Part shown: piece after piece, positions 43,908 through 60,703 of the stretch
How positions within the stretch are numbered: the first letter of the stretch is position 1
Layout of the letters: the number at the start of each line of letters is the position of its first letter
NCBI RefSeq assembly: GCF_003202235.1
Contig: NZ_MASU01000012.1
Location: 1 to 64,000, forward strand
Direction: 5' to 3'
Source of the DNA: Prauserella flavalba
GTDB taxonomy: Bacteria > Actinomycetota > Actinomycetes > Mycobacteriales > Pseudonocardiaceae
Length of the DNA: 64,000 nt
Program-made: the position numbers and the translations under genes
Notes under the pieces: model-generated
What the model was told of the DNA's origin: nothing
The model's input: the letters and a program-made list of their open reading frames with translations, nothing else
The model's database searches: none

Positions 43908-44723
43908 TCACGCGGTGGGTAGGGAGAATAGGCGGGCGGCGTTGCGCCAGAGGATGTCCTCGATCATGCTCGACGGGTACGGCAGTGCGCGGAACTCCTT
44001 GGCCAGCCGGGAGATCGGCGGCGATGACGGCCAGTCGCTGCCGAACAGCACCCGGTCGGCGACCCGGTCGAGTTCGGGAAAGTACTGCGGAACGCGCTTG
44101 GCCGGCAGGCCGGAGAGCTCCATCCACACGGTGGGCCGCATGCGGGTCAGGTTGAACACCTGATCGGTCCAGAAACCCCGCCCCGCGTGCGCGCAGATCA
44201 GCGTCAGGTCGGGAAAGTCACAGGCCACCTCGTCCACCAGCAGCGGGTCGCAGTAACGCAGCTTGGCGCCGGGAAAGACGGACGAGCCGACGTGGATCGT
44301 GACCGGGATGCGCCGCTCCTCCGCTACCGCATAGAGCGGGTACAGCGAACGATCGTTCGCCGGAAGCTGGGTGCTGCACGGGTGCACCTTCAGTCCGCGG
44401 GCACCCCGGTCGATCGCGTCGGCGAACCGGCGGCACGCGGTCGGCTCGGCCCGCGGGTCGTACTGCACGAACGGCAGCAGCCTCCCCCCGCTGCGTTCCG
44501 CCTCGTCCAGGGTGTACTCCTGCACGGACTCGCGGCCGCAGGGAATCGCCACGGCGACATCGACCTCCTGCGCGCGCAGGTAGTCCAGCATCGACGGGCC
44601 GGCAGAACCGTTGCGCTCCAATACCTCCAGCGTCTCCGGGTCGGCCACGTCCGCCGCGAGCGCCAGCCCCTCCGGGATCCACTGCTCGCGCGTGCCGACG
44701 TGAAGATGGCAATCGACGATCAC
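43908..44723 (-). CDS. Amidohydrolase-2 family metal-dependent hydrolase
   Basis: TIM-barrel hydrolase or decarboxylase of 271 residues. Metal ligands are His6 and His8 (DCHLHVG), a His in ICAHAGRG and an Asp in FGSDWP; LKVHPCS supplies a further conserved His. GTG 44723 is the first codon of the conserved domain; TTG 44762 is an alternative but would place the operator inside the gene. It is divergent from the aldehyde dehydrogenase. Relatives include ACMSD-like decarboxylases and lactone hydrolases; the reaction is not fixed. Confidence 0.82.
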   Translation of the reverse strand: MIVDCHLHVGTREQWIPEGLALAADVADPETLEVLERNGSAGPSMLDYLRAQEVDVAVAIPCGRESVQEYTLDEAERSGGRLLPFVQYDPRAEPTACRRFADAIDRGARGLKVHPCSTQLPANDRSLYPLYAVAEERRIPVTIHVGSSVFPGAKLRYCDPLLVDEVACDFPDLTLICAHAGRGFWTDQVFNLTRMRPTVWMELSGLPAKRVPQYFPELDRVADRVLFGSDWPSSPPISRLAKEFRALPYPSSMIEDILWRNAARLFSLPTA

Positions 44724-44743
44724 GGTTTGACAGCGTACATTAT

Positions 44744-44765
44744 CGTTCGACTGATCAATCAAACG
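44744..44765. promoter_or_regulatory. 22-bp palindromic operator between amidohydrolase and aldehyde dehydrogenase genes
   Basis: CGTT-C-GA-C-TGATCA-A-TC-A-AACG: 18 of 22 positions obey dyad symmetry around TGATCA. It is shared by two divergent genes, 24 bp from the plus-strand start. It resembles other ATTGATC words in the cluster. Confidence 0.65.
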
Positions 44766-44788
44766 TTGCCGACACCGAGGCTGGTGAG

Positions 44789-46165
44789 ATGAGCGAACTG
44801 ATCGTCGTCGCTCCGGATGATCTGCGGGAGATCGGCCGTGCCCCCGTTGACGACGCGAAGAGCGTGGACGCGAAGGTCACGGCCGCAGCGCAGGCGATGG
44901 CAAGCTGGGCGGCCGCCAGCCCGATGCATCGGGCGGAAGCGTTGCTGGCCATCGGCGCCGCCACCCGTGAGCGCATCCCGGAACTGGCCGACGCGCTGTC
45001 CCGCGAGCAGGGCAAGACCCGCAAGGAAGCCAAGATGGAGCTGGACCGCTACGCCGGCCCGTTCCTGCAGTACGCCGGCCTCGCGACCGCGATCGGCGGC
45101 CGGCACACCCGGCTCGCCCCTGAGGTCGAAGGGCTCGTCGAGCGCGTCCCGGTCGGCGTGGTGGCCGCGATCGTGCCGTGGAACTTCCCAGCATCGCTGT
45201 TCGCCAGCAAGCTCGCACCGGCACTGGCCGCCGGCTGCGGATTCCTGATCAAACCCGCGGATACCACCCCGCTGATCACCCTCGAACTCGCCGAGATCGC
45301 CAAGCGGTTCCTGCCAACGGGCCTGCTCGACGTGGTGATCGGCGGTGCCGAGGTCGGGGAGGCGCTCATCGCGCATCCGGACATCGCTCGGGTCGCGTTC
45401 ACCGGCTCGACCGCCGTCGGCCGCCGGATCGGGGCGCACGCCGGCAAGGAGCTCAAACGGGTGAGCCTCGAACTCGGCGGATGCGACCCGTTCGTGCTGC
45501 TGGAGGACGCCGATGTGCCGGCGGCCGTGCGGTCGCTGGTGGGTACCCGGTTCTACAACGCCGGCCAGGTGTGTGTCGCGCCCAAGCGGCTGATCGTCTC
45601 GGAGCGGGTCGCCGACGAGGCCATCGAGCTGCTGTCCGGCAAGCTCGCGCGCATCACTCCGGGCCCGGGGCTGTCCGAGACCGCCACCATGGGTCCGCTG
45701 CACACCGAACAGGGCCGCACCCTGCTCGAAGACCAGGTTGCCGACGCCGCGGACCGCGGGGCCACCCTGGTCGGCGGCGGACGTCCCGATGGCGAGGACG
45801 TCGAGCGCGGCTGGTTCGCCCGCCCGGCACTGGTGGTCGATCCCCCGGCCGGCGCGCGGGTGCGGACCGAGGAGACCTTCGGACCGGTGCTGACCGTCAT
45901 CCGGGTCCGTGACGAGGACGAGGCCGCCGCGGTGGCCAACGAGACCCGTTACGGACTCGGCGCGTCGGTGTGGAGCGGTGACCAGGACCGGGCATTCCGG
46001 CTCGCTCGCCGGATTCCGGCCGGCTACACCTGGATCAACGCACTCGGCCGGGTGTACGACGAGCTGCCCTTCGGCGGCGTGCGGGACTCCGGCTTCGGCC
46101 GCGAGCACGGCACCGAGGCACTGGACTCCTATCTCGAAGACCGGACCTTCATCTACCGGGGTTGA
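44789..46165 (+). CDS. NAD(P)-dependent aldehyde dehydrogenase
   Basis: A 458-residue ALDH, slightly shorter at the N-terminus than most. It has PWNFPASLFASKLAPALAAG, the base Glu in LELGGCDPF and the nucleophile Cys in NAGQVCVAP. ATG 44789 is preceded by GGTGAGATG-type sequence without a strong ribosome site. It is the first gene of the plus-strand half of the CoA pathway, divergent from the amidohydrolase. It may act on a semialdehyde released by ring opening, as PaaZ does in the phenylacetate pathway, but it lacks a hydratase domain. Confidence 0.9.
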   Translation: MSELIVVAPDDLREIGRAPVDDAKSVDAKVTAAAQAMASWAAASPMHRAEALLAIGAATRERIPELADALSREQGKTRKEAKMELDRYAGPFLQYAGLATAIGGRHTRLAPEVEGLVERVPVGVVAAIVPWNFPASLFASKLAPALAAGCGFLIKPADTTPLITLELAEIAKRFLPTGLLDVVIGGAEVGEALIAHPDIARVAFTGSTAVGRRIGAHAGKELKRVSLELGGCDPFVLLEDADVPAAVRSLVGTRFYNAGQVCVAPKRLIVSERVADEAIELLSGKLARITPGPGLSETATMGPLHTEQGRTLLEDQVADAADRGATLVGGGRPDGEDVERGWFARPALVVDPPAGARVRTEETFGPVLTVIRVRDEDEAAAVANETRYGLGASVWSGDQDRAFRLARRIPAGYTWINALGRVYDELPFGGVRDSGFGREHGTEALDSYLEDRTFIYRG

Positions 46166-46169
46166 TCAT

Positions 46170-46204
46170 CCGGTCAATCAGTCGCTTGATTGATCGACCG
46201 AACC
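46170..46204. promoter_or_regulatory. Operator-like inverted repeat before the dehydratase genes
   Basis: CGGTCAATCA at 46171-46180 faces TGATTGATCGACCG at 46187-46200. The right arm resembles the 44744 operator. It lies about 80 bp before the dehydratase start. Confidence 0.5.
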
Positions 46205-46278
46205 AATGGATACTGGGGAAGCGTCTACCGGACCTGTCCTCAGTGAAACGGGGCGACGCCCCAGGCGAGGAGGAGCGG

Positions 46279-46692
46279 ATGGCGGTCGTTGTCGGCCACC
46301 GGTTTCCAGAACGTGAGTTCTACGTCGATCCGGTTCGCGTGGAGGAATTCGTCTTCGCGCTCGGCGTCGATCCGGAGCCCGGCTACCGGGCCGAGATTGG
46401 CGCACCGGTACCACCGGGTTTCCTGATGTATGTCACGACCTACGGCGCGGACCCGGTGCACGACGCACTCGAGTTCGACCTGCTACGCACCGTTTTCGGC
46501 GGGGTGGACGAGGAGTTCCTCGCCCCCGTTCGCCTCGGTGACCGGCTCACCGTCCGGCCGCGGATCAGTGACATCACCGAGAAATCCGGCGGCTCCGGGC
46601 GGCTGACCTTCGTCGAGGTCACCACCGAGTACCTCCTCGGCGACGGCACGGTCGCCGTGCGGGAGCGGTCCACCATAGTGCAGCGAGGATGA
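46279..46692 (+). CDS. MaoC-like (FAS1-type N-terminal) dehydratase subunit
   Basis: Hot-dog-fold protein of 137 residues (REFYVDPVRVEEFVFALGVD, PPGFLMYVTTYG). ATG 46279 follows GAGGAGGAG. This type lacks the catalytic Asp/His pair and pairs with an active MaoC subunit, here probably the next gene, which overlaps its stop (ATGA). Together they would hydrate or dehydrate an acyl-CoA. Confidence 0.8.
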   Translation: MAVVVGHRFPEREFYVDPVRVEEFVFALGVDPEPGYRAEIGAPVPPGFLMYVTTYGADPVHDALEFDLLRTVFGGVDEEFLAPVRLGDRLTVRPRISDITEKSGGSGRLTFVEVTTEYLLGDGTVAVRERSTIVQRG

Positions 46693-47111
46693 CGACACAG
46701 ATGAGCTACCAGATCGGTGACACCCTGCCGGAGATCGTCACGCCGGCCATCGACCGGATGCGGATCGCCTACATGACGGTGTCCATGCGCGACCCCAACC
46801 TGGTGCATCTGGAGGACGACTACGCCGCCAAGGCCGGCCTGCCGAGCGTGATCGCGCACGGGACGTTCGCGGTGTCCCATCTCGGCGCCGCGGTCAGCCG
46901 TGCCGTCGGGGTGGACGCGCTCACCCAGTTCAGGGTCGACCTGGTCGCGCCGGTCTTTCCCGGCGACGTGCTGCGCACCGAGGCGACGGTGACCGGCGTC
47001 GAGACCGGTGACGGCGGCACCGTCGTCTCGGTGAAGCTGTCCGCGACGAAGGCCGACGGGACGCGCGTGGCCCGCGGAACGGCCGCCTTCCGAGAGCCGG
47101 CGGCGGCGTGA
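46689..47111 (+). CDS. MaoC-family acyl-CoA hydratase/dehydratase
   Basis: A 140-residue hot-dog hydratase with the active-site segment MRDPNLVHLEDDYAAKAGL (Asp and His of the catalytic pair) and SVIAHGTFAVSHL. Translationally coupled to the genes on both sides. Likely acts on an enoyl-CoA intermediate with the preceding subunit. Confidence 0.86.
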   Translation: MTTQMSYQIGDTLPEIVTPAIDRMRIAYMTVSMRDPNLVHLEDDYAAKAGLPSVIAHGTFAVSHLGAAVSRAVGVDALTQFRVDLVAPVFPGDVLRTEATVTGVETGDGGTVVSVKLSATKADGTRVARGTAAFREPAAA

Positions 47112-47539
47112 GCGTCCTGCGCAAGCGCAAGGTCCTGGTCGGCGAGGACGACGCCTCCGGCCTGATCTACTTCGCGACGTACTTCCACTACATGAGCGAG
47201 GGCGACCAGCTGCTCTTCGACGAGATCGGCAGCCCGATCCACCGCCAGATCCGGGATCGCCTCGCCGGGCCCGCCGTCCACGTCGAGTGCGACTACCTCG
47301 CCCCGGTACGCGCCGGCGACGAGCTGACGCACGAGATCGTCATGGCGGCCGGCAAGCGGTCCAGCGTCATGACCGAGCACGAGTTCCGCCGCGGTGACCT
47401 GGTCGTCGCGCGCGGCCGGATCGTGCGCGCCTACGTCGACCTCGGCACCCTCGAAACCGTCGAGGTGCCCGACCTGATCCGTGCCGCCGCCGACTCGGAC
47501 GCCCGCCGCGTCGGCCTGGCAGCGAGGACGTCGGGCTGA
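47108..47539 (+). CDS. 4HBT-type acyl-CoA thioesterase
   Basis: Single hot-dog domain of 143 residues with the family motif VGEDDASGLIYFATYFHYMSE in outline (catalytic Asp near residue 14-15, YF and HYMSEG). GTG 47108 overlaps the previous stop (GTGA). It may release CoA from dead-end aryl-CoA products, as PaaI does, or end the pathway. Confidence 0.82.
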   Translation: MSVLRKRKVLVGEDDASGLIYFATYFHYMSEGDQLLFDEIGSPIHRQIRDRLAGPAVHVECDYLAPVRAGDELTHEIVMAAGKRSSVMTEHEFRRGDLVVARGRIVRAYVDLGTLETVEVPDLIRAAADSDARRVGLAARTSG

Positions 47540-47643
47540 TGCCACCCAGGTCACATCGATGGATAGATCAATTCCATACACGCCGGTTCCGCCCGATCAC
47601 CGTTGGGTACCATGCTGCGGTGAATGGCAAGGGAGGGTTGGCT

Positions 47644-48336
47644 GTGTCGACACACCCGGGCCGGGCGGCCTCAGCAGCGAAGCAGCAGCGCGGGAAAAGT
47701 CCCCTCACCGCCGAGACGGGGCCAGCATCATCGGGCGATTCCGGCGGGGCTTCCGCGGACATCACCGAGCACGAGCTCAAGCGGCGGGCGATCCTCGAAG
47801 GCGCGGCGGCGGTATTCGCTCGGCGGGGCTTCGTGGCAGGCACCACGAAGGAGATCGCGGCCGAAGTCGGCCTGAGCCAGCCGGCGATCTATCACTATGT
47901 CGGTTCGAAGTCCGACCTCCTGCGGGAGATCGCGCTCCAGGTCGACCGCGACCTGTTCGCCGCGCTGGAGTCCGGCATCGCCCGCTCCACCAATCCCGCG
48001 GAGCAGCTGCGCGGGATCATCGAGGAGTACACCGCGGCGGTCGTCCGCGACCGGCGCGTGTTCGCGGTGTTCTGGCAGGAAGGGCACTCCCTGCCACAGG
48101 AGATCCAGGACCGGATCAGGGAAGATCAGCGCGATTTCATCACCAGGGTAGGCAAGATCGTCGCCCGCCTGCAGCGGTCGAAGGTGCTCCCGCCCGGCCC
48201 GGTGGCCGTGATGGCCAGGGCCATCCTGAGCATGCCGAGCTGGATGTACCACTGGTACCTGCCGGAGGGCCAGATGACCGCGACCGAGATCGCCGACGTC
48301 TACTGCCGGCTGATCGGGCTCGGCGAGAGGCGATGA
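47644..48336 (+). CDS. TetR-family transcription repressor
   Basis: Regulator of 230 residues with an N-terminal HTH (EIAAEVGLSQPAIYHYVGSK, about 75-95 after a disordered lead) and a helical ligand domain with WQEGHSLP and PSWMYHWYLPEG. GTG 47644 follows AAGGGAGGG by 6 bp. It overlaps the next SDR gene. It is the only regulator in the cluster and the best candidate for the ATTGATC operators; TetR proteins of this type usually sense an acyl-CoA. Confidence 0.88.
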   Translation: MSTHPGRAASAAKQQRGKSPLTAETGPASSGDSGGASADITEHELKRRAILEGAAAVFARRGFVAGTTKEIAAEVGLSQPAIYHYVGSKSDLLREIALQVDRDLFAALESGIARSTNPAEQLRGIIEEYTAAVVRDRRVFAVFWQEGHSLPQEIQDRIREDQRDFITRVGKIVARLQRSKVLPPGPVAVMARAILSMPSWMYHWYLPEGQMTATEIADVYCRLIGLGERR

Positions 48337-49094
48337 ACCCGATCGCGCCCTTCGACGGCCAGGTCGCCGTGGTGACCGGTGCCGGGCGTGGCGTGGGGAC
48401 CGCCATCGCGCACCGCCTCGCCGTCGGCGGCGCCGACCTCGTGCTGTTCGACATGGACGCCGCGGCACTGGCCACGGTGGCGGAGGAGATCCGGGAAGCC
48501 TCCGGCCGCGCCGTGTCGTGTGTCGCCGGGGACGTCCGCGACCGCGCGGCACTCGCCGCACTGGTGGAGACCGCCGTCACCGAACGGGGACGCCTCGACA
48601 TCGTCGTCAACAACGCGGGCAAGTGGACCATCTCGCCGTTCATCGATTCCACTGTGGACAGCTGGCATGCCGACATCGGGATCAACCTGGTCGGCCCGCT
48701 GCACCTGGTCCAGCTCGCGCTGCCGGCCATGCTCGGCCGTGGCTACGGCCGGATCGTGAACGTCGTCTCCGACTCCAGTCGGGTCGGCGAGCCGAACGTC
48801 GCCGTCTACGCGGCGGCGAAGGCCGGCGTGGCGGCGTTCTCCCGCTCGCTGGCGAAAGAGGTCTCCGGACAGGGGATCACGGTGAACTGCATCTCGCTGT
48901 CCACCACCGTCACGCCGGGCGCCCATGACACGTTCACCGCGGACCAGCTCACGAAAATGCCGAAGCGGTACCCGGTCGGCCGTCTCGGCACCCCGGAGGA
49001 CGCGGCCGGCGCGGTGGCCTACTTCGCGAGCCCGGAGACGAGCTGGGTGACCGGGCAGACGTTGAGCGTCAACGGCGGCTACGCGATGCTCTGA
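48333..49094 (+). CDS. Short-chain dehydrogenase/reductase
   Basis: A 253-residue classical SDR: TGAGRGVGTA (cofactor), VNNAGKW, catalytic Ser in VVSDSSR and YAAAK, ending WVTGQTLSVNGGYAML. ATG 48333 overlaps the TetR stop (ATGA). Probably oxidises a hydroxyacyl-CoA or alicyclic alcohol of the pathway; a 2-hydroxycyclohexanecarboxyl-CoA-like substrate would suit the BadI-like enzyme, but this is inference. Confidence 0.87.
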   Translation: MNPIAPFDGQVAVVTGAGRGVGTAIAHRLAVGGADLVLFDMDAAALATVAEEIREASGRAVSCVAGDVRDRAALAALVETAVTERGRLDIVVNNAGKWTISPFIDSTVDSWHADIGINLVGPLHLVQLALPAMLGRGYGRIVNVVSDSSRVGEPNVAVYAAAKAGVAAFSRSLAKEVSGQGITVNCISLSTTVTPGAHDTFTADQLTKMPKRYPVGRLGTPEDAAGAVAYFASPETSWVTGQTLSVNGGYAML

Positions 49095-49101
49095 CGCGCC
49101 G

Positions 49102-49118
49102 GCCGCCGCTCAGGCGGC
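49102..49118. terminator. Small hairpin between convergent genes
   Basis: GCCGCC-GCTCA-GGCGGC, a 6-bp stem that overlaps the stop codon of the minus-strand ferredoxin reductase and lies 8 bp after the plus-strand SDR. Weak by itself. Confidence 0.4.
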
Positions 49119-50108
49119 GGGTGCGTCGGTCGAGTGGCCCGGGAACAGGTCCGCGCCGGGGTCGATGTGGATGGCGGCGTTGTTGACCGCGGTGGCCGAT
49201 TCGCCGAAGCCGACCGCGATCAGCCGCACCTTGCCAGGGTATTCGGTGATGTCTCCCGCGGCGTAGACCCCGGGCACGCCTGTCCACATGCGACTGTCCA
49301 CGACGATTCGGCGATCCTTGATCTCGACACCCCACTCGGCGATCGGGCCGAGATCCGCGGTGAAACCCAGGGCCGCCACCACCGCCTGCACGTCGACGGT
49401 CTCCGTCTCGCCGGTGACCCGGTGCGCGATCTCGGCGCGCTCCACCCGGTCGCGGCCGTCCAGCCGGCGCACTTCCCGGTCGGTCAGCACGCGCGCGCCG
49501 GACGCGTGCATCCGGTCCACCGAGTGCCGATGCGCGCGGAACGCCGCACGGCGGTGCACGAGCGTCACCGAGCTGGCGATCGGTTCCAGCGACAGCGCCC
49601 AGTCGACGGCGCTGTCGCCGCCCCCAACGACCAGAACGTCCTGGCCGGCGAGGCTGTCCAGCTTCGGCACGAAGTACCTCAGCCCGCGGCCGAGGAATTC
49701 CTCACCGGCCGGAAGCGGCCGCGGTGCGAAGGTGCCGATGCCACCGGTGAGCACCACCGCACGGCACTCGATCCGCCTGCCGGCGTCGGTCGTCACCGCG
49801 AGACCGGCAGGCAGGTGTTCGAGCTCGGCCGCCTGCTCGGCGAGGAAGTACCGCGGCGCGAACTGCGCCGCCTGGCCGACCAACGCGTCGACCAGATCAC
49901 GGCCACGGACAGCAGAGAACCCGGCGATGTCGTGGAGCAGTTTCTCCGGGTACAGCGCGCTGATCTGCCCGCCCGGCTCCGGCAGTGAGTCGACGACGGC
50001 GATCGACAGTCCCCGGAAACCCGCGTAGTAGGCGGCATACAGCCCGGCAGGGCCCGCCCCGACAATGAGTATGTCTACAGTGGACACTTCGGTGGCAGGG
50101 GCAGACAC
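49110..50108 (-). CDS. Ferredoxin-NADP+ reductase, thioredoxin-reductase-like type
   Basis: Flavoprotein of about 332 residues with FAD motif IVGAGPAGLYAAYYAG, NADPH motif VVGGGDSAVDWALSL and AAGDITEYPGKVRL. There is no CxxC, so it is not a thioredoxin reductase. GTG 50108 with GGGAG 5 bp upstream is preferred over ATG 50120. It closes the minus-strand operon that also codes a ferredoxin. Together they could replace the missing PaaE reductase for the PaaABCD-like oxygenase. Confidence 0.88.
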   Translation of the reverse strand: MSAPATEVSTVDILIVGAGPAGLYAAYYAGFRGLSIAVVDSLPEPGGQISALYPEKLLHDIAGFSAVRGRDLVDALVGQAAQFAPRYFLAEQAAELEHLPAGLAVTTDAGRRIECRAVVLTGGIGTFAPRPLPAGEEFLGRGLRYFVPKLDSLAGQDVLVVGGGDSAVDWALSLEPIASSVTLVHRRAAFRAHRHSVDRMHASGARVLTDREVRRLDGRDRVERAEIAHRVTGETETVDVQAVVAALGFTADLGPIAEWGVEIKDRRIVVDSRMWTGVPGVYAAGDITEYPGKVRLIAVGFGESATAVNNAAIHIDPGADLFPGHSTDAPAA

Positions 50109-50140
50109 GTGCTCTCCCATGAATCCGATGGAACGATGAG

Positions 50141-50581
50141 TCAGTCGGCCCGCTCGGCGGCGCGGGCCAGCAGGCCGGTGGTGCGGAAGGTGAGCACGAG
50201 GTCGGCGTCGCCGGCATACACCTCGAACGCCATGGTGATCAGGCCGAAGCCGCGCCGGGTGACGCGGGTCTCCTCGATCGTCACCTTCGCCCGGATCTCG
50301 GTCCCCGGGTAGACCGGCTGATGCCAGCGGGCGTCGGTGAGGCTGACCCCCGCTCGCCCGTGATCGGCCATCACCGCCTCGACCCACAGCCGCCACGCGA
50401 TGGCCATGGTCTGGTAACCGGAGGCGATCACGCCGCCGAACGCGGTGCGCGCGGCCCAATCCGAGTCGAGATGCATCGGCTGCGGGTCGTGGGCGGCCGC
50501 GAACGCCGTGACGTCCTCGGCGGTCAGCAGGTGCGATTTCGTCTCGTAGACCTGACCGACGGCGAACTCTTCGAAGAACAT
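50141..50581 (-). CDS. MaoC-family acyl-CoA hydratase
   Basis: A 146-residue single hot-dog hydratase: AAAHDPQPMHLDSDWAARTA carries the catalytic Asp/His, followed by GVIASGYQTMAI. Starts at ATG 50581. It lies next to the DUF35-thiolase fusion, the same neighbours as in the steroid side-chain hydratase-aldolase system, where a MaoC hydratase and a DUF35-bound thiolase work in sequence. Confidence 0.87.
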   Translation of the reverse strand: MFFEEFAVGQVYETKSHLLTAEDVTAFAAAHDPQPMHLDSDWAARTAFGGVIASGYQTMAIAWRLWVEAVMADHGRAGVSLTDARWHQPVYPGTEIRAKVTIEETRVTRRGFGLITMAFEVYAGDADLVLTFRTTGLLARAAERAD

Positions 50582-50624: not shown

Positions 50625-52220
50625 TCAGATCGCCAGCCGGAGTACACCGACGGTGCAGGCGTTGGTCTCCAGCTCCAGCACCGTGCCGCCCATGGTGTGC
50701 AGCAGGGCGACGCCGGGATCGGACAGCTGGCGCTCACCGGCGGCACCACGCAGCTGGCGGACGAGCTCGGCGACCTGCGCCAGCCCGGTCGCACCCGGCG
50801 GGTGGCCACGGGAGAGCAGGCCGCCGCTGGGATTGAGCGCCGGCTCGCCCCCGCCGCGGAAACCGCCGGCGAGCAGCCTGCCCGCCGCGGTGCCGGGCTC
50901 GGCGAGGCCAAGGTATTCGAGGTTGGTCAGCGCGCCGGGGGCGAAGGCGTCGTGCAGCTCGACCACCCCGATGTCGGCCGGGGTGACCCCGGCGGCGGCG
51001 TAGACGGCCTGGGAGAACCGGTGAATGATGCTGTCCCCGGAGAACCGGTCTTTCGCGAACCCCGCATGCAGGCCCATCGCCGCGAGCTCGACCGGCGGAT
51101 GCGGCAGCCGCGCCCGCAGCCGGTCGGCGACGACCACCACCGCGGCGGCGCCGTCGGCGTTCGGGGCGCACTGGAACAGCGTCAACGGCTCCGCGATGGG
51201 CCGAGAGCCTACTACGTCCTCCCTGGTCACCGCGGTTCGCCGGAAAGCGTCGGGGTTGGCCGCCGCCGCTGCCCGACTGCGCACCACCACTTCGGCGAAG
51301 GCGTCCGTGGCGACGTCGTAGCGGGCGCGGTAGCGGTCGCAGACGAGAGCGTAGAGCGAGGGCAGCGTCACCCCGATGCCCGCGACCGGATCGTCCCGGT
51401 CGAGCTGGATGAGCCCACCGCCGGAGCGGACCGGGGTGTCCGCGCCGACCGCGACAACGGCGTCGGCGAGTCCCGCACGCACCAGCGCGACGGCCTCGGC
51501 GAGCGCGGTACTCCCGCTGGCACAGGCGTTTTCGACGTTCACGAGCCGGCGCCCACCCCACGGGACGTGCCGCAGCATGCGCTGCCCGAGCGCGGCGGTC
51601 GAGAAGGCGCTGCCGACGATCACCGCGTCGACCTCGGCCGGCCGCAGCCCGGCATCGGCGACCGCGGCGAGGGCCGCCCGCGCGGCGAGCTGCTCGGGCG
51701 GCAGGTCGGGGCGCCCGAACTGCGTGGTGGCCACGCCGGCGATGGTGAGGCCGAGCCGGGCGGGCGTCGGCCGCAGTTCCGGCTCGGCCGGGACCGGGCC
51801 GCCCGGCCGCTCGGCCGGCAGTTCGTCACAAGGGCTGAACACCGGCCCGAAGACCGGCCGGCCGTCGTCCTCGCGCACCACCCCGCAGCCCACCCGCACC
51901 GGCGCTCCGTGCTCCGGCGCGGCATCGGCGAAGCGGGCGAAGACGTGTAGCTCGGGATAGAGCTGGACGACGCCGACGTGGTAGGAGTCGGGGTAGCCGG
52001 GCGGCGAGACGTGGATGCGCGAACGGGCCACCACCCGTCCGGTTGCCGGCAGGCCGACGCGCACCATCTCCGCACCGCACCGTCCACAGTAGGCGCGGAA
52101 CGGGAAGGAGTGGCCGCCGCAGTCGGGGCATCGCGAGCCGAGCAGGCCGTCTGCCGGATCGAACCAGTCACCGGCGCCGAGCACCCGATCCGCCGTACCC
52201 GGTCGCGCGTCCACGCTCAT
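50625..52220 (-). CDS. DUF35 (Zn-ribbon/OB-fold) fused to an SCPx-type thiolase/aldolase
   Basis: A single 531-residue chain. Residues 1-145 form a DUF35 module with zinc cysteines 31, 34, 45 and 48 (CPDCGG, CGRCG) and an OB-fold. Residues from about 155 are a non-decarboxylating SCP2-thiolase: [17 protein letters not shown] with the nucleophile Cys, [20 protein letters not shown], and [17 protein letters not shown] with the active-site His. In most systems these are two proteins (for example ChsH2 and Ltp2, or IpfE and IpfD). ATG 52220 overlaps the ferredoxin stop. It probably removes an acyl-CoA unit by thiolysis or retro-aldol cleavage. Confidence 0.88.
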
Positions 52221-53893: not shown

Positions 53894-54618
53894 CGGTACA
53901 CCGCCCGGACACCGTCGTCCGGGCCGACCCGCAGCGACCGGACGGTGCCCAGGGTGCGGCCGAGCTGGGCCTGCTCGCTCCCGGCCACCCGCGGTCGCGG
54001 CGCCGCACCGAGCAGCGCGACGTCCAGGTCGGCGGCGGCGAGCAGCGGGCCCAGCTCGGCGAGCCAGGACTCGTGCAGGCGCCGGCGCACCGGCCCGGCC
54101 GGCATGCCGGGGGCCGCGCCGAAAAGATCACCGGCCAGCGGCAGCAGGTCGGCGCCCCGCTTGCCGAAGTCGTCCCGGGTACGGGCGTCGCCGCCGAGCA
54201 GCCGGACCCAGCTCGTCCAGTGCGTTCGATGCAGCTCCTGCTCGGCCAGCATGGTCGAGGTCGCCTGGCGCACCTGCTCGTCGCTGTGTTCGGTCAGTCC
54301 CCGGCTCAGCAGCATCCCGGCCGAGGCGACCAGCAACCCGCGCAGCACGGTCGACGGCCAGTCGCGGTCGTCTGCCACGACGAGCCTGGACGGCCACCAC
54401 TCGCTCAGCGGGCGCTCGTAGACGAACCGGTCGCGGTCGGTCCTGTCCTGGCCCGCCAGCCCGAGCAGCGTCGCGGCGTGCGCGAGCTCCTCCTGGGCGA
54501 TGGAGCCGACGGCAAGGGACACCTCGAGGTCGACGTAGTCCACGATCCACGACGACAGCAGGTGGCCGTGCAGGAACTGGTCCTCGGCGTACCGCAGGAA
54601 GATCTCTGGTTCGTTCAT
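53890..54618 (-). CDS. PaaC-like structural subunit of an aryl-CoA oxygenase
   Basis: A 242-residue helical ferritin-like protein (FLRYAEDQFLHGHLLSSWIVD, SIAQEELAHAATLLGL). PaaC pairs with PaaA and anchors the complex. ATG 54618 overlaps the PaaB stop. It shows typical PaaC features, but the parent cluster lacks paaE, paaG and paaZ. Confidence 0.88.
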   Translation of the reverse strand: MNEPEIFLRYAEDQFLHGHLLSSWIVDYVDLEVSLAVGSIAQEELAHAATLLGLAGQDRTDRDRFVYERPLSEWWPSRLVVADDRDWPSTVLRGLLVASAGMLLSRGLTEHSDEQVRQATSTMLAEQELHRTHWTSWVRLLGGDARTRDDFGKRGADLLPLAGDLFGAAPGMPAGPVRRRLHESWLAELGPLLAAADLDVALLGAAPRPRVAGSEQAQLGRTLGTVRSLRVGPDDGVRAVYR

Positions 54619-54962
54619 GACGGTGCCCCCGCCGACTCGGTGGACGGCTGCCCGGTCCGGGTGCCCTGCGCGGCCCGCTCCCGGTCACGCCGGTGGCGGC
54701 CGGGAAAGCCGGGGGTGCGGTAGTCGAGCCGGCCGCCGGACTTCAGTGATTCGAGGTCGTCGGCGGTGCTGAACACCATGCCCGAGCGTTTCGCGATCCA
54801 CAGCACCGTGCACTCCTCGCGCCGGGTGTAGATCTCCTTGGCCGCGTGCCAGGCCAGCGTCGGTTCCGCGGCGCGGACGCTGCCGACCCACCTGATCGGC
54901 TCGGACTGCTTGCCGTACCGCGCGAAAACCTCGTAGGAGTCTTCTTCTGTGCCGGGCCTCAT
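54615..54962 (-). CDS. PaaB-like subunit of an aryl-CoA oxygenase
   Basis: A small subunit of 115 residues (YEVFARYGKQSEPIRWVGSV, LAWHAAKEIYTRREECTVLW). PaaB bridges PaaAC dimers. ATG 54962 overlaps the PaaA stop. The C-terminus carries a short polar tail. Confidence 0.9.
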   Translation of the reverse strand: MRPGTEEDSYEVFARYGKQSEPIRWVGSVRAAEPTLAWHAAKEIYTRREECTVLWIAKRSGMVFSTADDLESLKSGGRLDYRTPGFPGRHRRDRERAAQGTRTGQPSTESAGAPS

Positions 54963-55876
54963 GCCGCGCTCCGCATCAGGGCGACGTCCCGGTAGAGCGC
55001 GTTGCGTTCGAGGCTGTCGGCGATCTTCGCCCGCCACTCCTCGTGTCGCGGACCGCCTTCGCGCAGCATCTTCTTGACCGCAACCCAGTCCGGGGAGGCG
55101 AACCACCACTTGCCGGTCTCCTCGTCGACATGGGTCAGCGCCGGGTCGACGTGCACCCCGAGCTTCCGGAAAACCGGGATGATCTTCGCCAGCCACTCCT
55201 GGCGCATCGCGTCGTTCGACGAGACCTTGATGCCGAACTGGTACATCCGGTTGCCCTGGTAGGTGTCGGTGTCCGGTGGGCCGAAGTAGGCGAGGATCCG
55301 CGGCAGCCAGGTCTCGAAGGCCTGCTGCACCAGGGCACGCTGCGCGGGGGTGCCCAGCGTCATCGTCTGGTGCGTGTGGTCGAGGGCGTGGTGGTAGTGG
55401 AAGCTCTCCTCCTTCTCGATCTTGCGCAGCGCCCGCGCGTAGGGCAGGTAGGTGCCCTGGTCAAGCGCCTGGAACTGGACGATCGCGGCGCTGTTCATCA
55501 GCAGCGCCGCCGGACCGACCTCCTCCCAGGTGTCGAACCCGAAATGGAAGACGTTGAGCAGCTTGGTCCGCCCCTCGACGAAATCGAGGATGATCCGATC
55601 TCGGCTCACACCGAGGTCCTCGGCGACCCGTGCGGTGACCTGGCCGTGCCCGACCTCGTCCTGCACCTTCGCGATCAGCATCTGCTTGCGCGCGTAGTCC
55701 GGCACGCGGTCAATCCACTCGGCGAACGGCAGCACGCCGACTATTTCGGCGAGCGCCTGGAACGACGAGACGCGGGCGGCCTCCTCGCGATACCCATCAG
55801 GTAGGTCGTCCCACAGCTCGAACTTGCGGGCGAGCCGCGGGTCCGGCTCGTCTCGAGGCAGCGCACGGTCAGCCAT
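54959..55876 (-). CDS. PaaA-like catalytic subunit of an aryl-CoA oxygenase (epoxidase)
   Basis: Di-iron monooxygenase of 305 residues. The carboxylate/His motifs QDEVGHGQ and KEEESF-type EESFHYHH supply the two E-x2-H pairs expected in PaaA. Other conserved pieces are KFELWDDLPDGYREEA, WIDRVPDYARKQMLIAK and GFDTWEEVGPAALLMNSAAI. ATG 55876 has GAGAGGAG upstream. It is the first gene of a tightly coupled operon (PaaA-B-C-D, BadI-like, ferredoxin, thiolase). PaaABC(E) epoxidises phenylacetyl-CoA; here the CoA substrate is probably different because the usual downstream enzymes are absent. Confidence 0.9.
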   Translation of the reverse strand: MADRALPRDEPDPRLARKFELWDDLPDGYREEAARVSSFQALAEIVGVLPFAEWIDRVPDYARKQMLIAKVQDEVGHGQVTARVAEDLGVSRDRIILDFVEGRTKLLNVFHFGFDTWEEVGPAALLMNSAAIVQFQALDQGTYLPYARALRKIEKEESFHYHHALDHTHQTMTLGTPAQRALVQQAFETWLPRILAYFGPPDTDTYQGNRMYQFGIKVSSNDAMRQEWLAKIIPVFRKLGVHVDPALTHVDEETGKWWFASPDWVAVKKMLREGGPRHEEWRAKIADSLERNALYRDVALMRSAA

Positions 55877-55914: not shown

Positions 55915-56010
55915 AGAGATTAGTCAGACACCCCGAGTCGGGTCAAGCGCGGCCGGTCACCCCGGGCGAACCCGGCTTGACGACCCCCGGACGTCATGGC
56001 ACGATCCCGC

Positions 56011-56030
56011 AATCAATCAATCGATCAATC
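56011..56030. promoter_or_regulatory. AATC-rich operator-like site before the secreted hydrolase
   Basis: AATCAATCAATCGATCAATC, tandem AATC words including GATCAATC, 75 bp upstream of the plus-strand hydrolase start. It lies in the 228-bp divergent promoter region, which holds no gene. Confidence 0.5.
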
Positions 56031-56104
56031 GCGGTCGCACCCGTGGCCGTGCTTACCGGTCCCCGATCTGCCTGTCTGATTTCTCAACGAAGAGGAGCTG
56101 GAAA

Positions 56105-57265
56105 GTGGATGTGAAACGGCGACCGTGGCGGCGTCTCATGCAGACGCTCGCCGTCGGAACCGTGGTGGCCGTGGCGCCACTGGTCGCGCCGGCCGGCGCG
56201 GCGACCGCCCAACCCGCGACCCCCGCGCTGACCGCACCCGCGCCGCGGGCCGTGACGGGGATGGCCGGACAGGTCGAGCAGACCTCGGTCGCGACCGACT
56301 TCTCCGGCAGCGGAGCGGCCTGCGGCGACTACTACTTCCCTGTGACCATGTCCGAAGGCGACCCCACCGTCTACCGGGTGTGGGGACGGCTGTGCAGCAA
56401 GACGTCGTTCACCGACCGGGCCGTCCAGGTGCTGCTGCACGGCGGCAGCTACAACCACACCTACTGGGACTGGCCGTTCCAACCGGAGAACTACTCCTAT
56501 GTCAAGGCGGCGACCGAAGCCGGCTTCGTCACCCTGACCCTCGACCGGCTCGGCTACGGCTACAGCGACCGGCCGAACTCGCTCGGAATCACCTTCCCGT
56601 CCAACGCCTGGGTTGCCCACCAGGTCGTCCAGTACCTGCGCAGGGGCGCGCTCGGCGAGCCGGCCAAGAAGGTCATCCTCGGCGGCCATTCGATGGGTGG
56701 CCTCACCACCAACATCGAGGCCGGCACGTACAACGACGTGGACGGCGTGATCGTCTCCGGGATGACCCACGTGATGAACTACCCGGTGATCGCCACGATC
56801 GCCGCCGCGCTCGTACCGGCCGAGCTGGACCAGAAGTTCGCCGGGAACGTGCCGCTGGCGTCGGCCTACACCACCACCCGAGCCGGCGTCCGCTGCCAGA
56901 TCGCGTTCTACCAGCAGGGCGCCTACGACCCGGACATCTGTGCCGCGGAGGAGAAGTACAAGGACACCATCGCGGCCGGTGAGTGGGTCACGGTGGTCAC
57001 GCACGACCCGTTACCGACACCCTCCGACCGGATCACCGCACCGGTACTGATGGCGATGGGCAACAACGACCACATGATGTGCGTCCTGACCTGCGACGCC
57101 GACCTGAATTCCCATCTGGAAGCGAGTTTCTACCCGAACGCGGCCAGTTACGAGCTCTACACCCAGCCACGCAGCGCACACGACCAGAACCTGCACTACA
57201 CCGCGCGGCAATGGTTCCAGAAGGCGATCGACTGGTCGATCGAGCATGTCGGCGTCAACACCTGA
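56105..57265 (+). CDS. Secreted alpha/beta hydrolase
   Basis: A 386-residue protein with a signal peptide (basic MDVKRRPWRRLMQ, hydrophobic core, likely cleavage near AGAATA). The serine hydrolase motif GGHSMGG lies near residue 197, and VLLHGGSYNHTYWDWPF forms the oxyanion region; a His in RSAHDQNLHY is the likely triad member. Several Cys pairs suggest disulfides outside the cell. GTG 56105 follows GAGGAG. Divergent from the PaaA-like gene, it could release the pathway acid from an ester or amide in the medium. Confidence 0.85.
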   Translation: MDVKRRPWRRLMQTLAVGTVVAVAPLVAPAGAATAQPATPALTAPAPRAVTGMAGQVEQTSVATDFSGSGAACGDYYFPVTMSEGDPTVYRVWGRLCSKTSFTDRAVQVLLHGGSYNHTYWDWPFQPENYSYVKAATEAGFVTLTLDRLGYGYSDRPNSLGITFPSNAWVAHQVVQYLRRGALGEPAKKVILGGHSMGGLTTNIEAGTYNDVDGVIVSGMTHVMNYPVIATIAAALVPAELDQKFAGNVPLASAYTTTRAGVRCQIAFYQQGAYDPDICAAEEKYKDTIAAGEWVTVVTHDPLPTPSDRITAPVLMAMGNNDHMMCVLTCDADLNSHLEASFYPNAASYELYTQPRSAHDQNLHYTARQWFQKAIDWSIEHVGVNT

Positions 57266-57361
57266 CCCAAGTCACCCACTTGGGCTCACCCAGGCGGTTC
57301 CGGGATTCGATGCGAAACCGAATCCCGGAACCACTGGCTGTTCCACTTCGGCGTCAACGAT

Positions 57362-57378
57362 GCTATCAATCAATCAAC
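57362..57378. promoter_or_regulatory. ATCAATCAATCAACC words before the CoA ligase
   Basis: GCTATCAATCAATCAAC lies about 70 bp upstream of the ligase start, in a 179-bp gap. Same word family as 56011. Confidence 0.4.
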
Positions 57379-57444
57379 CGACTATCTCGACCCGCAGGCA
57401 GTCCCCTAACCCCTCAGTATTCACGCCGCACCGGGAGAGTTTCG

Positions 57445-59145
57445 ATGAGTGATTCGTACCCGACCTTCGGCTCCATCCCCGCCGAGTGGCTTGTTCCGCC
57501 AGAACGGCAACCGCAGTACCCCGGTGGCCCCGCGGTGGCACCGGAGGACCGCCGGGCCAACCTGCCGGACCTCCTTGTCGATCGGCACGTGCGCGCCGGG
57601 CGCGGCGACGTGCTGGCGTTCGTCCACGCCGACACCGGGGAAACCTGGACCTACCGGGAGGTCGAACAGCGCACCCGCCGCGCCGCATCCGCGATGGCCG
57701 CGCTCGGTGTGCGCGCCGGAGACCGGGTCGCGATCCGTTCGAGCAACCACCCCGAGGTGGTCATGCTGTACCTGGCGGCATGGCGGTTGGGCGCCATGGC
57801 CGCACTGACCCCGCCGCAGGCCCGCCGCGGCGAAATCCCGTTCTTCGTCAAGGACACCAAGGCCAAGGTGCTCTTCGTCGCGAACAAGGGCGACTTCGTC
57901 GGCGAGACCCTCGCCTGCCTGTCCGAGCTGGACTCGCTCGACGCGGTGGTCGCGTTCCCGGAAAGCCCCGGCGAGCCGCTGCTGTCCTGGAACGAGCTGA
58001 TGGAACGGGCCGAGCCAGACGTGCCCGACCGCGAGCCCGAACCCGACGAGGTCGCCGTGGTGTGGCACACCGGCGGCAGCACCGGCGTGCCGAAAGCCTG
58101 CTACCACACGGCATACCGGCTGGTGCACGGCGCACAGCCGAGTGTGTCGGCCTACGGCGTGCGGGAGGGCGACGTCCATCTCTTCCCCGCTCCGGTCGGG
58201 CACGCCGCCGGCTGGCTGTCGCGAACGACGTTCTCCCTTCTGCCCGGGATCACGCTCGTCGAACTGGAGAACTTCGCCTCCGGGCAGGACGTGCTCAAGG
58301 CCATCACCGAGCACAAGGTCACCTGGTTCATGGCGCTCGGGGTCACTTGGGCGGGGATGCTGCACGCCTACGAAGCCAACCCGTCGGCCTACGACCTGTC
58401 CTCATTGGAACGCACTTACGCACCGTTCATCGCCGGAAGCGGCGGCTGGCTGTACGAAGCGTGGCAACGACACGGGCTCGACCTGCTCAACCCGATGGGC
58501 AGCACCGCTTTCGGGAACTGGTTCATGGTGCCGCGCCACGACGAGAAGAACCCGCCGATGACGCTCGGACGTCCGGTCGACGGCTTCGAAGCGCGCATCG
58601 TCGTGCCCTATTCCGATCCACTCGAGGACGTCGAGCCGGGAGAGGTCGGCCAGCTCGCGATCCGTGGCCCCTCCGGACTGACCTACTGGAACCGACCCGA
58701 CTTGCAGGAACGGGACAGCCGAGAAGGCTGGACGGTGATCGACGATCTCGCGCGGGTGGACGAGAACGGCAACTACTGGTACCTCGGCCGCTCGGACATG
58801 ATGATCAGCACCAGCGGCTACAAGGTCGCGCCGATGGAAGTGGAGAAGGTGATCTCCACCCATCCCGCGGTCAGTGAGGTCGTGGTGACCGCCGCGCCGG
58901 ACAAGATGCGCAGCGAGGTGGTGATGGCCTGGATCGTGCCCAAGGCCGCGGGGGACGCGACGGCCGTGCTCGCCGACGAGATCCGCCAGCATGTCCGCGA
59001 CCACGTGTCGCCGTACAAGTACCCGCGGCGCATCGCGTTCGTCTCCCAGCTGCCGCACGACCCGCTCGGGAAGATCATCGTCAAGCAGGTCGTCTCCTGG
59101 GCGCGGGGCGATCAGCAACCACCGCACGTCATCGCGGAGTTCTGA
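57445..59145 (+). CDS. Aryl/acyl-CoA ligase (AMP-forming, benzoate/2-aminobenzoate-CoA ligase-like)
   Basis: Likely first enzyme of the CoA pathway, 566 residues. P-loop-like HTGGSTGVPKACYHTAYRLV, then LLNPMGSTAFGNWF, WTVIDDLARVDENGNYWYLGR and the final GKIIVKQVVSWARG carry the AMP-binding family motifs. The N-terminal SDSYPTFGSIPAEWLVPPE and the GGSTGVPK variant resemble ligases for benzoate or aminobenzoate. ATG 57445 follows GGGAGAG. The upstream frame extension is not coding. The crotonase gene begins 1 bp after its stop. Confidence 0.88.
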   Translation: MSDSYPTFGSIPAEWLVPPERQPQYPGGPAVAPEDRRANLPDLLVDRHVRAGRGDVLAFVHADTGETWTYREVEQRTRRAASAMAALGVRAGDRVAIRSSNHPEVVMLYLAAWRLGAMAALTPPQARRGEIPFFVKDTKAKVLFVANKGDFVGETLACLSELDSLDAVVAFPESPGEPLLSWNELMERAEPDVPDREPEPDEVAVVWHTGGSTGVPKACYHTAYRLVHGAQPSVSAYGVREGDVHLFPAPVGHAAGWLSRTTFSLLPGITLVELENFASGQDVLKAITEHKVTWFMALGVTWAGMLHAYEANPSAYDLSSLERTYAPFIAGSGGWLYEAWQRHGLDLLNPMGSTAFGNWFMVPRHDEKNPPMTLGRPVDGFEARIVVPYSDPLEDVEPGEVGQLAIRGPSGLTYWNRPDLQERDSREGWTVIDDLARVDENGNYWYLGRSDMMISTSGYKVAPMEVEKVISTHPAVSEVVVTAAPDKMRSEVVMAWIVPKAAGDATAVLADEIRQHVRDHVSPYKYPRRIAFVSQLPHDPLGKIIVKQVVSWARGDQQPPHVIAEF

Positions 59146-59146
59146 G

Positions 59147-59917
59147 GTGCACCAGGTACTCCTGGAACGCGATGGTCCAGTGTGGACACTCACGTTGAAC
59201 GACGAGCGCCGGCGCAACGCGCTCGACCTGGTCATGCGGGAACGGCTACGCGACGCGCTCGCCACGGCGATGGCCGACGACCGGTGCCGGTCGATCGTGC
59301 TCACCGGCGCCGGCGGAACCTTCTGTGCCGGCGGCGACCTCGCGACCATGCCGACCGACAGGCCGGAGTCCGGCCGGCCCCGGCTCGCGGTGATCGCGGA
59401 GATCACCCGGCTGCTGCTGTGCGGGGCCAAGCCCGTCGTGGCGGCGGTCGAGGGATTCGCCTACGGAGCCGGTCTCTCGCTCGCCGCGGCCAGCGACCAC
59501 GTGGTCGCCGCGAGTGATGCGCGGCTGTGCTGTTCCTTCGGGAAGGTGGGACTGATCGCCGACACCGGTCTGCTGTGGACACTCCCGCAGCGGGTCGGGA
59601 TCGGCCGGACGAAGGAGCTGCTGTTCTTCGCTTCGGTCCTCAACGCACACCAGGCCCACGGCCACGGCCTCGTCGACGCGATCACCGAGCCCGGTGACAC
59701 GCTGGCGGAAGCACATCGCCGGGCGGCGATCCTCGCGGCGGCCGCCCCCGGCCCGATCGCGGAGACCAAACGGGTGCTTGCGGCGTGGCCCGCGACACTG
59801 GACGAGGTGCTGGCCGACGAGGCCGACACCCAGGTCCGCCTGTTCGGCAGCGCCGACTTCGCCGAGGGCAGGCCGGCGTTCTTCGACAAGCGCCCGGCGA
59901 GGTTCCTCGGCCATTGA
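59147..59917 (+). CDS. Enoyl-CoA hydratase/isomerase
   Basis: A 256-residue crotonase: NDERRRNALDLVMRERL, LTGAGGTFCAGGDLATM (oxyanion hole) and VEGFAYGAGLSLAAASDHVV. GTG 59147 directly follows the ligase stop. The usual second catalytic Glu position reads KVGLIADTG, so isomerase or dienoyl-CoA activity may be more likely than simple hydration. It works after the ligase in the same operon. Confidence 0.87.
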   Translation: MHQVLLERDGPVWTLTLNDERRRNALDLVMRERLRDALATAMADDRCRSIVLTGAGGTFCAGGDLATMPTDRPESGRPRLAVIAEITRLLLCGAKPVVAAVEGFAYGAGLSLAAASDHVVAASDARLCCSFGKVGLIADTGLLWTLPQRVGIGRTKELLFFASVLNAHQAHGHGLVDAITEPGDTLAEAHRRAAILAAAAPGPIAETKRVLAAWPATLDEVLADEADTQVRLFGSADFAEGRPAFFDKRPARFLGH

Positions 59918-59959
59918 CCGGACGATCACGGACCCCCACCGAATCATGGGAGGTTGCAC

Positions 59960-60703
59960 GTGGAGCTGCTTGGCGGACGCGCGGCGGTGGTCACCGGCGC
60001 GGCGCAGGGCATCGGCCTGGAGATCGCGCGGGTGCTCGCCGAGCACGGCGCCGGCGTGGTGCTCGGTGACCGCGACGCCGAGGCAGCCGAGCGCGCCGCC
60101 GAACGGCTCACGGCCGGCGGCGCCCGCGCACTCGGCGTCGGCTGCGACGTGACGGTCCCCGACCAGGTCACCGCGCTGGTCGAACGCTGTGTCCTGGAGT
60201 TCGGCACGCTGGACGTGATGGTCAACAACGCCGGCATCACCAGGGACGCGACCCTACGCAAGATGAGCGTCGAGGACTTCGATGCCGTCGTCGACGTGCA
60301 CCTCAAGGGCAGCTGGCTTGGCACCCGCGCGGCGTCGGTGGTGATGCGCGAGCGCAAGCGCGGGTCGATCGTCAACATCTCCTCGATCTCCGGCAAGGTC
60401 GGCATGGCCGGGCAGACGAACTACAGCGCGGCAAAGGCCGGCATCGTTGGCCTGACCAAGGCCGCGGCGAAGGAACTCGCGCACCTCGGTGTCCGGGTCA
60501 ACGCCGTCCAGCCCGGTCTCATCCGCACCGCGATGACCGAGGCGATGCGGGAGGACATCTGGGCGGCGAAGGTCGCGGAGGTGCCGATGGGGCGGGCCGG
60601 CGAACCGGCCGAGATCGCCACCGTGGTGCTCTTCCTCGCCAGCGACCTGGCCAGCTACCTGACCGGCGGCGTCCTCGAAGTCACCGGCGGCCGCCACATC
60701 TGA
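59960..60703 (+). CDS. FabG-like 3-oxoacyl reductase / hydroxyacyl-CoA dehydrogenase
   Basis: A 247-residue SDR with [30 protein letters not shown], catalytic Ser in [10 protein letters not shown] and YSAAKAG, and a closing [15 protein letters not shown] 59960 has GGGAGG 6 bp upstream. The NNAGITRD motif is typical of FabG/PhaB enzymes. Likely a beta-hydroxyacyl-CoA oxidation step. Last gene of the plus-strand operon. Confidence 0.88.

Follow-up and report, generated by a model that had tools for sequence, protein, structure and literature searches.

A gene cluster with a PaaA-type oxygenase of a separate clade in Prauserella flavalba, a candidate third aerobic coenzyme A-dependent route for ring degradation

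What does a set of genes for a PaaABCD-like oxygenase do in a genome that already holds canonical phenylacetate (paa) and benzoate (box) degradation genes? The question is raised by a cluster of 20 genes at positions 43908-60703 of a 64,000-nucleotide stretch of Prauserella flavalba DNA, hereafter the window (positions 1 to 64,000 of NZ_MASU01000012.1, which is contig 12 in the 39-contig, 8.09 Mb genome; window G+C content, 68.7%). To our knowledge, only Box and Paa are well established as aerobic coenzyme A (CoA)-epoxide routes for ring acids. We consider that the cluster, as a group of operons, probably serves the catabolism of a single ring-containing carboxylic acid, which would place it next to these two as a third hybrid route of aerobic, CoA-dependent ring degradation. 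Family searches bore out the gene list of an initial annotation made from the sequence alone, namely a CoA ligase, PaaA-D, a BadI-like protein, a crotonase, two short-chain dehydrogenases (SDRs), three MaoC-type proteins, a thiolase, an aldehyde dehydrogenase (ALDH) and a thioesterase. That annotation had left out an FdxA-type ferredoxin, a ferredoxin-NADP reductase (FNR), an amidohydrolase, a TetR regulator, an exported-looking alpha/beta hydrolase, the fusion of the thiolase to a DUF35 domain and the separate clade of PaaA.

The four oxygenase proteins, all encoded on the minus strand, scored below their NCBIfam equivalog cut-offs: PaaA (54959-55876; TIGR02156, 222.7/280 bits), PaaB (54615-54962; TIGR02157, 51.4/85.45 bits), PaaC (53890-54618; TIGR02158, 67.8/133.35 bits) and PaaD (53372-53893; TIGR02159, 91.6/108.15 bits). 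NCBIfam matches were drawn from the best 25 listed, and PaaK, BoxB and BoxC were each checked by a separate genome search. The di-iron ligands of PaaA are given in PMC4498308 as Glu42, Glu72, His75, Asp126, Glu155 and His158, together with a lysine bridge of Lys68 with Glu49, Glu72 and Asp126, and with Phe108, which orients the phenylacetyl group. Using this residue list (E. coli numbering), we compared 20 rows comprising the window, 18 loci and E. coli, of which 12 were canonical PaaA (the own-genome copy on contig 7, 10 among the best-scoring loci of a search that matched 91 genomes, and E. coli) and seven belonged to the window clade (the window, L008, L019, L020, L021, L023 and L027). Glu42, Glu72, His75, Glu155 and His158 were present in all 20 rows. 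Asp126 was found in 12/12 canonical rows and was Asn in 7/7 members of the window clade, and Glu49, likewise present in every canonical row, was Phe (six) or Tyr (one) throughout the clade. The window PaaA retains five of the six di-iron ligands, the sixth being Asn126, and keeps Lys68 and Glu72 of the lysine bridge with Phe in place of Glu49 and Asn in place of Asp126. Phe108 was present in 18 of the 20 rows, the others having Ile (canonical L009) or Leu (Sulfobacillus L022); the L022 protein retains Asp126 with Cys at 49 and Ala at 68. The 12 canonical rows split off in a maximum-likelihood tree with 99/97 support, and the support for the seven-member window clade was 66/95 (64% of 200 bootstrap trees) with the long-branched L022 included. 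Judged by alignment and tree, the window PaaA is a member of a separate clade.

Canonical counterparts are located elsewhere in the same genome. Contig 7 encodes canonical PaaA and PaaC, PaaB and PaaD (recognized by eye), and PaaE (490.2 bits), PaaZ (1016.1 bits) and PaaK (702.0 bits) above cut-off, with a 3-oxoadipyl-CoA-type thiolase below it (516.8/597 bits). PaaK proteins above cut-off were found three times (two on contig 7 and one on contig 17; the third is at contig 7 8927-10183). Contig 13 carries boxB (743.8 bits) and boxC (845.3 bits) above cut-off and a gene for a benzoate-CoA ligase family protein (510.3 bits). There, boxC, boxB, the ligase gene and an amidohydrolase gene stand in a row (L044 7007-12592), and the amidohydrolase directly after the box genes is 34-37% identical to that of the cluster. 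The BoxB model matched contig 13 only in the genome search, and BoxC exceeded its cut-off only there, the cluster crotonase being a weak match (27.9 bits vs a cut-off of 712.3). Since canonical paa genes and boxB, boxC and a benzoate-CoA ligase family protein are already present in this genome, the phenylacetate and benzoate routes are already served and the cluster represents a third aerobic CoA-type locus. A simple duplication of the paa locus was ruled out by the PaaA identity of 36% to the contig 7 copy and by the different active-site residues. The claim that the cluster is not the PHENYLACETATE pathway proper is supported at the sequence level by the differing residues, the sub-cut-off subunits and the canonical paaA-E, Z and K elsewhere. 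Contig 17 also encodes its PaaK and a second PaaE above cut-offs, about 2 kb apart (19856-23969), whereas neither PaaA nor PaaC was found there in the search for this pair.

How the oxygenase of the cluster is supplied with electrons is suggested by its gene neighborhood. On the minus strand, paaA (55876-54959), paaB, paaC and paaD are followed by genes for a MenB/BadI-type crotonase, the FdxA-type ferredoxin (52217-52576; TTG start chosen), the DUF35-thiolase (ending at 50625), a MaoC protein (MaoC2, 50581-50141) and the FNR (50120-49110). With the chosen starts, neighboring genes between paaA and the thiolase meet at six junctions, of which five are 4-base overlaps and the other (crotonase/ferredoxin) is a 1-base gap. 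Given this gene order and the tight junctions, the ferredoxin and FNR genes are very probably on the oxygenase transcript. The ferredoxin scored 151.6 bits against the FdxA_Actino family (NF045480), above the cut-off of 125, and the reductase, of the thioredoxin-reductase type, matched solved ferredoxin-NADP reductases (best chain so named, E 1.3e-88). A genome search with the PaaE model (TIGR02160) gave no match within 43908-60703, as had been claimed, with weak matches 6-10 kb to the left of the cluster (window 33.5-34.4 and 37.4-38.2 kb). Ferredoxin and FNR were retained at 61-68% identity in all three closest relatives (Blastococcus, Nocardioides and a Frankiales metagenome-assembled genome (MAG); FNR, 65%). 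In the Blastococcus aggregatus assembly, the single PaaA/PaaC pair is of the window type and the best PaaE-model match reaches only 93.3 bits vs the cut-off of 420.8, and its oxygenase is therefore probably fed by something other than a true PaaE. These Blastococcus data are the best evidence for FNR and ferredoxin feeding the oxygenase, and the two proteins probably substitute for PaaE.

The cluster is conserved beyond the genus. In six comparison sets, with conservation defined as at least 40% identity over at least half coverage, Blastococcus and Nocardioides each retained 16 of the 20 cluster genes, the Frankiales MAG 11 (on a contig only 18.8 kb long), G544 10, a Streptomyces plasmid 4 and G016 3. 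Chance assembly of unrelated genes was ruled out by this conservation in other genera. Identities in Blastococcus, Nocardioides and G544 were 70%, 70% and 63% for the amidohydrolase and 75%, 70% and 66% for ALDH, respectively; the TetR regulator was 65-67% identical in three relatives and SDR2 63% identical in Nocardioides. The order PaaABCD-crotonase-ferredoxin-thiolase is common to Blastococcus, Nocardioides and the Frankiales MAG. An 11.8 kb Nocardioides contig follows the window order from amidohydrolase and ALDH to the FAS1-like dehydratase subunit (FAS1-DH), MaoC1, 4HBT thioesterase, TetR and SDR1, interrupted by an additional thiolase gene. A further contig starts within SDR1 and continues with FNR, a ligase and uptake-type genes, PaaABCD, crotonase, ferredoxin, thiolase and MaoC2; we infer that the two contigs adjoin. 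Beside the relatives' copies, genes for ABC uptake, a further ligase and acyl-CoA dehydrogenases were recognized by eye. The locus is rare: in draws of family, phylum and class genomes, PaaA matches at E <= 1e-90 besides that of the own genome were found in 0/199, 1/395 (G544) and 1/196 (G016), respectively. A contig pattern scan, which can miss relatives, began with 33 candidate stretches and retained four, three being close, and among 203 plasmid records with a match only the Streptomyces one was near (59.9%), the next among the matches listed being at 37.8%.

From these genes we infer a sequence of catalytic steps and an electron path as follows. The acyl-CoA ligase (57445-59145, plus strand) would activate the acid to its acyl-CoA. 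Electrons would pass from NADPH through FNR and the FdxA ferredoxin to the di-iron centre of a PaaABC-like complex, which would place oxygen onto the ring of the CoA ester. The oxygenated ring might then be rearranged and opened by the crotonases and MaoC2, and the resulting semialdehyde would be oxidised by ALDH (44789-46165, plus strand; PF00171). The open chain would be shortened by MaoC1 (46689-47111, plus strand; PF01575, with a DPNxxH motif) with FAS1-DH (46162-46692, plus strand; a FAS1-like/MaoC hot-dog protein, PF13452, with an alternative ATG at 46279), the SDRs and the DUF35-thiolase. The 4HBT thioesterase (47108-47539, plus strand; PF13279) may free trapped CoA, and a side or ring product may be hydrolysed by the amidohydrolase (43908-44762, minus strand).

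Hints to the substrate come from the ligase and from the relatives of the oxygenase. The best NCBIfam match of the ligase was the long-chain family PRK06187 (250.5 bits), followed by the benzoate-CoA ligase family TIGR02262 (224.3 bits), both below cut-off, and its nearest solved structures were anthranilate- and benzoate-CoA ligases (PDB 4wv3 and 2v7b), in agreement with its earlier description as benzoate/aminobenzoate-like. A paaK-type ligase had been reported as absent, and the PaaK model (TIGR02155) indeed gave no match in the cluster in the genome search. The sister clade of the oxygenase was found in two near-alike biosynthetic gene sets, one on the Streptomyces plasmid and one in G016, with genes that we take to be for 3-amino-4-hydroxybenzoate formation. 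Ligase kinship and this sister-clade context point weakly to a benzoate-type ester, and whether the substrate would be of the benzoate rather than the phenylacetate type is, in our judgement, close to an even call, leaning slightly to the negative.

The plasmid region of Streptomyces sp. Mut1 (L023 17913-39053) and G016 (L024, L025) are closely similar, since G016 has counterparts, at 64-91% protein identity, for 18 of the 20 plasmid genes tested. Both sets hold two ketoacyl synthases III, an Asn126-clade PaaABCD with PaaB and PaaC in one frame, a ligase, a crotonase, an SDR, P450s and 3,4-aminohydroxybenzoate genes. It is very improbable that the Prauserella cluster is itself biosynthetic and not catabolic: although its nearest outside oxygenase clade lies in these two biosynthetic-looking clusters with their ketoacyl synthases and 3,4-aminohydroxybenzoate genes, they match only 3/20 and 4/20 of its genes at 40% identity, and the window set includes a thiolase, a thioesterase and an ALDH while its relatives carry apparent uptake genes. 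As a tentative extension, which we would sooner doubt than assume, the Asn126 proteins may form a separate class of PaaA-type di-iron oxygenase that has no lysine bridge, is driven by ferredoxin and performs a different oxygenation on benzoyl-type CoA esters, serving an undescribed degradation pathway and, in the sister clade, a likewise undescribed route from 3-amino-4-hydroxybenzoate to a natural product.

The steps after oxygenation are where a phenylacetate-like chemistry has to be weighed. As stated, orthologues of paaG, paaZ and paaJ are lacking, but the cluster does hold candidates for the corresponding steps (the second crotonase (ECH2), MaoC2, ALDH and the thiolase), ECH2 and MaoC2 being far below cut-offs. 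Because the best families were the MaoC domain of PaaZ for MaoC2 (36.2/562.8 bits) and the alternative oxepin-CoA hydrolase family for ECH2 (185.8/300 bits; matching part at 59156-59917, plus strand, with the start codon upstream in an open reading frame from 58991), an oxepin-type ring opening is also possible. The cluster is without a fused PaaZ, ALDH and the PaaZ-MaoC-domain-like MaoC2 being separate. These two family matches, the presence of Phe108 in 7/7 window-clade PaaA proteins and the naming of the Nocardioides relative as an ibuprofen degrader (in one passage and in a cited paper's title; only a lead) would suit another pathway of the phenylacetate type, acting on substituted phenylacetic or 2-arylpropionic acids by the same epoxide-oxepin chemistry. 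We regard it as unlikely, as Asp126 and Glu49 are altered in all seven clade members and the PaaK model is without a match in the cluster; moreover, in the passages of the literature examined, no link was found between carbamazepine or ibuprofen use by the Nocardioides relative and the cluster genes.

A hydrolytic opening had instead been proposed on the basis of the BadI-like gene. This MenB/BadI-type crotonase (52578-53375, minus strand) scored 261.5 bits on both models, with cut-offs of 467.6 (BadI) and 380 (MenB), and had identities of 48.1% with an annotated BadI and 43.9% with S. aureus MenB, sharing a GPxxGS motif with both in the alignment. The Asp after this motif has a catalytic role in both MenB and BadI. 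It follows GPKVGS in the S. aureus MenB and the annotated BadI compared; in the window crotonase this position is Pro, followed by Asn-Trp-Trp. The Asp is absent from the window protein and the four relatives compared, and the resulting P-x-W-W motif is also found in Blastococcus, Frankiales, Rhodococcus jostii plasmid pRHL3 and Miltoncostaea proteins. A true BadI was ruled out by the score (261.5/467.6 bits) and the missing Asp, and a MenB function by the missing Asp. The argument from BadI likeness to hydrolysis fails as stated on these grounds and on the disruption of the gene in Nocardioides (described below); judged from the sequence, hydrolytic ring opening by this crotonase is possible. 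In sum, the observations of the initial annotation were confirmed, and its interpretation held for the distinction from Paa proper and for the ligase type, but not for hydrolytic opening in the form proposed.

The same enzyme would be central to an alicyclic or terpenoid ring-acid pathway, in which the oxygenase would hydroxylate a saturated or partly unsaturated ring beside the thioester, an SDR would produce the 2-oxo acyl-CoA and the MenB/BadI-like crotonase would hydrolyse the ring. SDR1 (48333-49094, plus strand; PF13561) scores on BadH, at 195.1 bits vs a cut-off of 431.2, and acyl-CoA dehydrogenase genes were read by eye in the relatives' clusters. The pRHL3 crotonase relative is grouped with an acyl-CoA dehydrogenase, an SDR, a thiolase plus OB-fold protein and a CoA transferase, and PMC7793797 describes an estrogen edc cluster having a BadI-like protein with chsH2-like and lipid-transfer proteins. 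Such a route needs no oxygenase, however, and the crotonase lacks the Asp common to MenB and the annotated BadI and is disrupted in Nocardioides, which makes this explanation quite unlikely. The pRHL3 region of Rhodococcus jostii RHA1 (L030 10409-20175), in which the P-x-W-W crotonase is accompanied by genes for the thiolase, OB-fold protein, acyl-CoA dehydrogenase, SDR, CoA transferase and an ALDH with no annotated Paa oxygenase, may be another ring pathway.

Several findings weigh against a third aerobic ring-degradation route with a ferredoxin-fed oxygenase. The substrate can be given only as a putative class. The CoA ligase was conserved only in Blastococcus (55%); each of the other five sets gave either <= 33% identity or no match, while ECH2 and the exported-looking alpha/beta hydrolase were conserved in 0/6 sets (no match for the hydrolase). 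The crotonase gene of Nocardioides carbamazepini is disrupted (L020 11126-11592), its internal part being gone with a frame shift, for which an assembly error is possible, and no crotonase match at E <= 1e-50 was found anywhere in that assembly. Unless the assembly errs, the crotonase may for these reasons be dispensable in Nocardioides, and a ring-opening enzyme is not assured among the cluster genes. As for electron supply, Nocardioides, with only a window-type PaaA/PaaC pair, has PaaE-like reductases elsewhere (397.7 and 367.9 bits, below the 420.8 cut-off), the own genome has two PaaE above that cut-off (489.9 and 478.1 bits, on contigs 7 and 17) and the Frankiales MAG has a PaaE-like protein (416.6 bits) and also canonical PaaA/PaaC; these PaaE-type proteins could serve the window-type oxygenase. 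Finally, G544 shares the oxygenase clade, the ALDH and the amidohydrolase, but its 32 kb contain neither FNR nor ferredoxin nor a MenB/BadI-type crotonase; elsewhere in G544 the PaaE model reached 86.5 bits at best.

The remaining genes of the cluster are arranged around the minus-strand oxygenase group (FNR, 49110-50120; MaoC2, 50141-50581). The left plus-strand set (44789-49094) comprises ALDH, FAS1-DH, MaoC1, the 4HBT thioesterase, the TetR-type regulator (47539-48336; PF00440 and PF17932, later start possible) and SDR1, and the right plus-strand set (56138-60703) comprises the exported-looking alpha/beta hydrolase (56138-57265; PF12697, signal peptide judged by eye), the CoA ligase, ECH2 and the FabG-like SDR2 (59954-60703; NF004198, 364.8 bits, above the cut-off of 296). 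The thiolase gene (50625-52220, minus strand) encodes a DUF35 part (ChsH2-like zinc ribbon/OB; PF12172) fused to an SCP2/BbsB-type thiolase (PF22691) with Cys and His motifs present, whose nearest solved structure is benzoylsuccinyl-CoA thiolase (PDB 7pxp, E 2.6e-56). The amidohydrolase gene (44762-43908) is divergent from ALDH and encodes an amidohydrolase_2 protein with an ACMSD/LigI-like TIM barrel (PF04909, E 1.2e-38), the predicted model of which (mean pLDDT 84.0) matched 3irs, LigI and several decarboxylases, reflecting the general fold without a choice of function. The promoter scan gave 0 promoter-like sites vs 0.8 expected, and the terminator scan gave 3 terminator-like sites vs 5.0 expected. 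A perfect inverted repeat with 14-base arms and a 9-base loop, the only one among four intergenic or boundary stretches searched, lies between the exported-looking hydrolase and the ligase (57296-57332) and may be a terminator or an operator. Genes to the left (41406-43705), recognized by eye as those of an IS3-type transposase and a Cas5-type CRISPR protein, may delimit the cluster on that side, and to the right (60753-63956) lie genes for an MFS transporter, a DAO-type FAD oxidoreductase and a TPP enzyme.

If true, a third aerobic CoA route in several actinobacterial genera would extend the ring substrates by one class and give PaaABC-type enzymes a new source of electrons. With an iron ligand replaced in nature, the roles of Asp126 and the lysine bridge become directly testable. 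The interest of the locus rests on this altered di-iron site and the ferredoxin supply and not on the BadI argument. The gene combination had been noted as matching no known pathway, in agreement with which neither this gene set nor a PaaABCD plus ferredoxin pathway was described in the open-access literature searched, with subscription papers mostly outside its scope.

Compared with known systems, the cluster shares with Paa (PaaABCDE/PaaG/PaaZ/PaaJ/PaaK) the homologous oxygenase components A-D, CoA activation, crotonases and MaoC and ALDH functions, but differs in the changes of Asp126 to Asn and Glu49 to Phe, the ferredoxin and FNR in the place of PaaE, the lack of a PaaK-model match, the SCP2-type thiolase fused to DUF35 and the scores of A-D under the equivalog cut-offs. 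With Box (BoxABC) it has in common a benzoate-like ligase, a ferredoxin-like electron carrier and an amidohydrolase of the family found beside the own-genome box genes, whereas the BoxB match is confined to contig 13 and the sole BoxC-model match of the cluster is its crotonase at 27.9 vs 712.3 bits. Its crotonase resembles BadI (2-ketocyclohexanecarboxyl-CoA hydrolase) and MenB in superfamily, GPxxGS motif and identity (48.1% and 43.9%, respectively), but has Pro-Asn-Trp-Trp in place of the Asp after the motif and scores below both cut-offs. AntHIJKL of antimycin biosynthesis is a PaaABCDE relative acting on an anthraniloyl thioester and, unlike the proposed role of the cluster, is biosynthetic.

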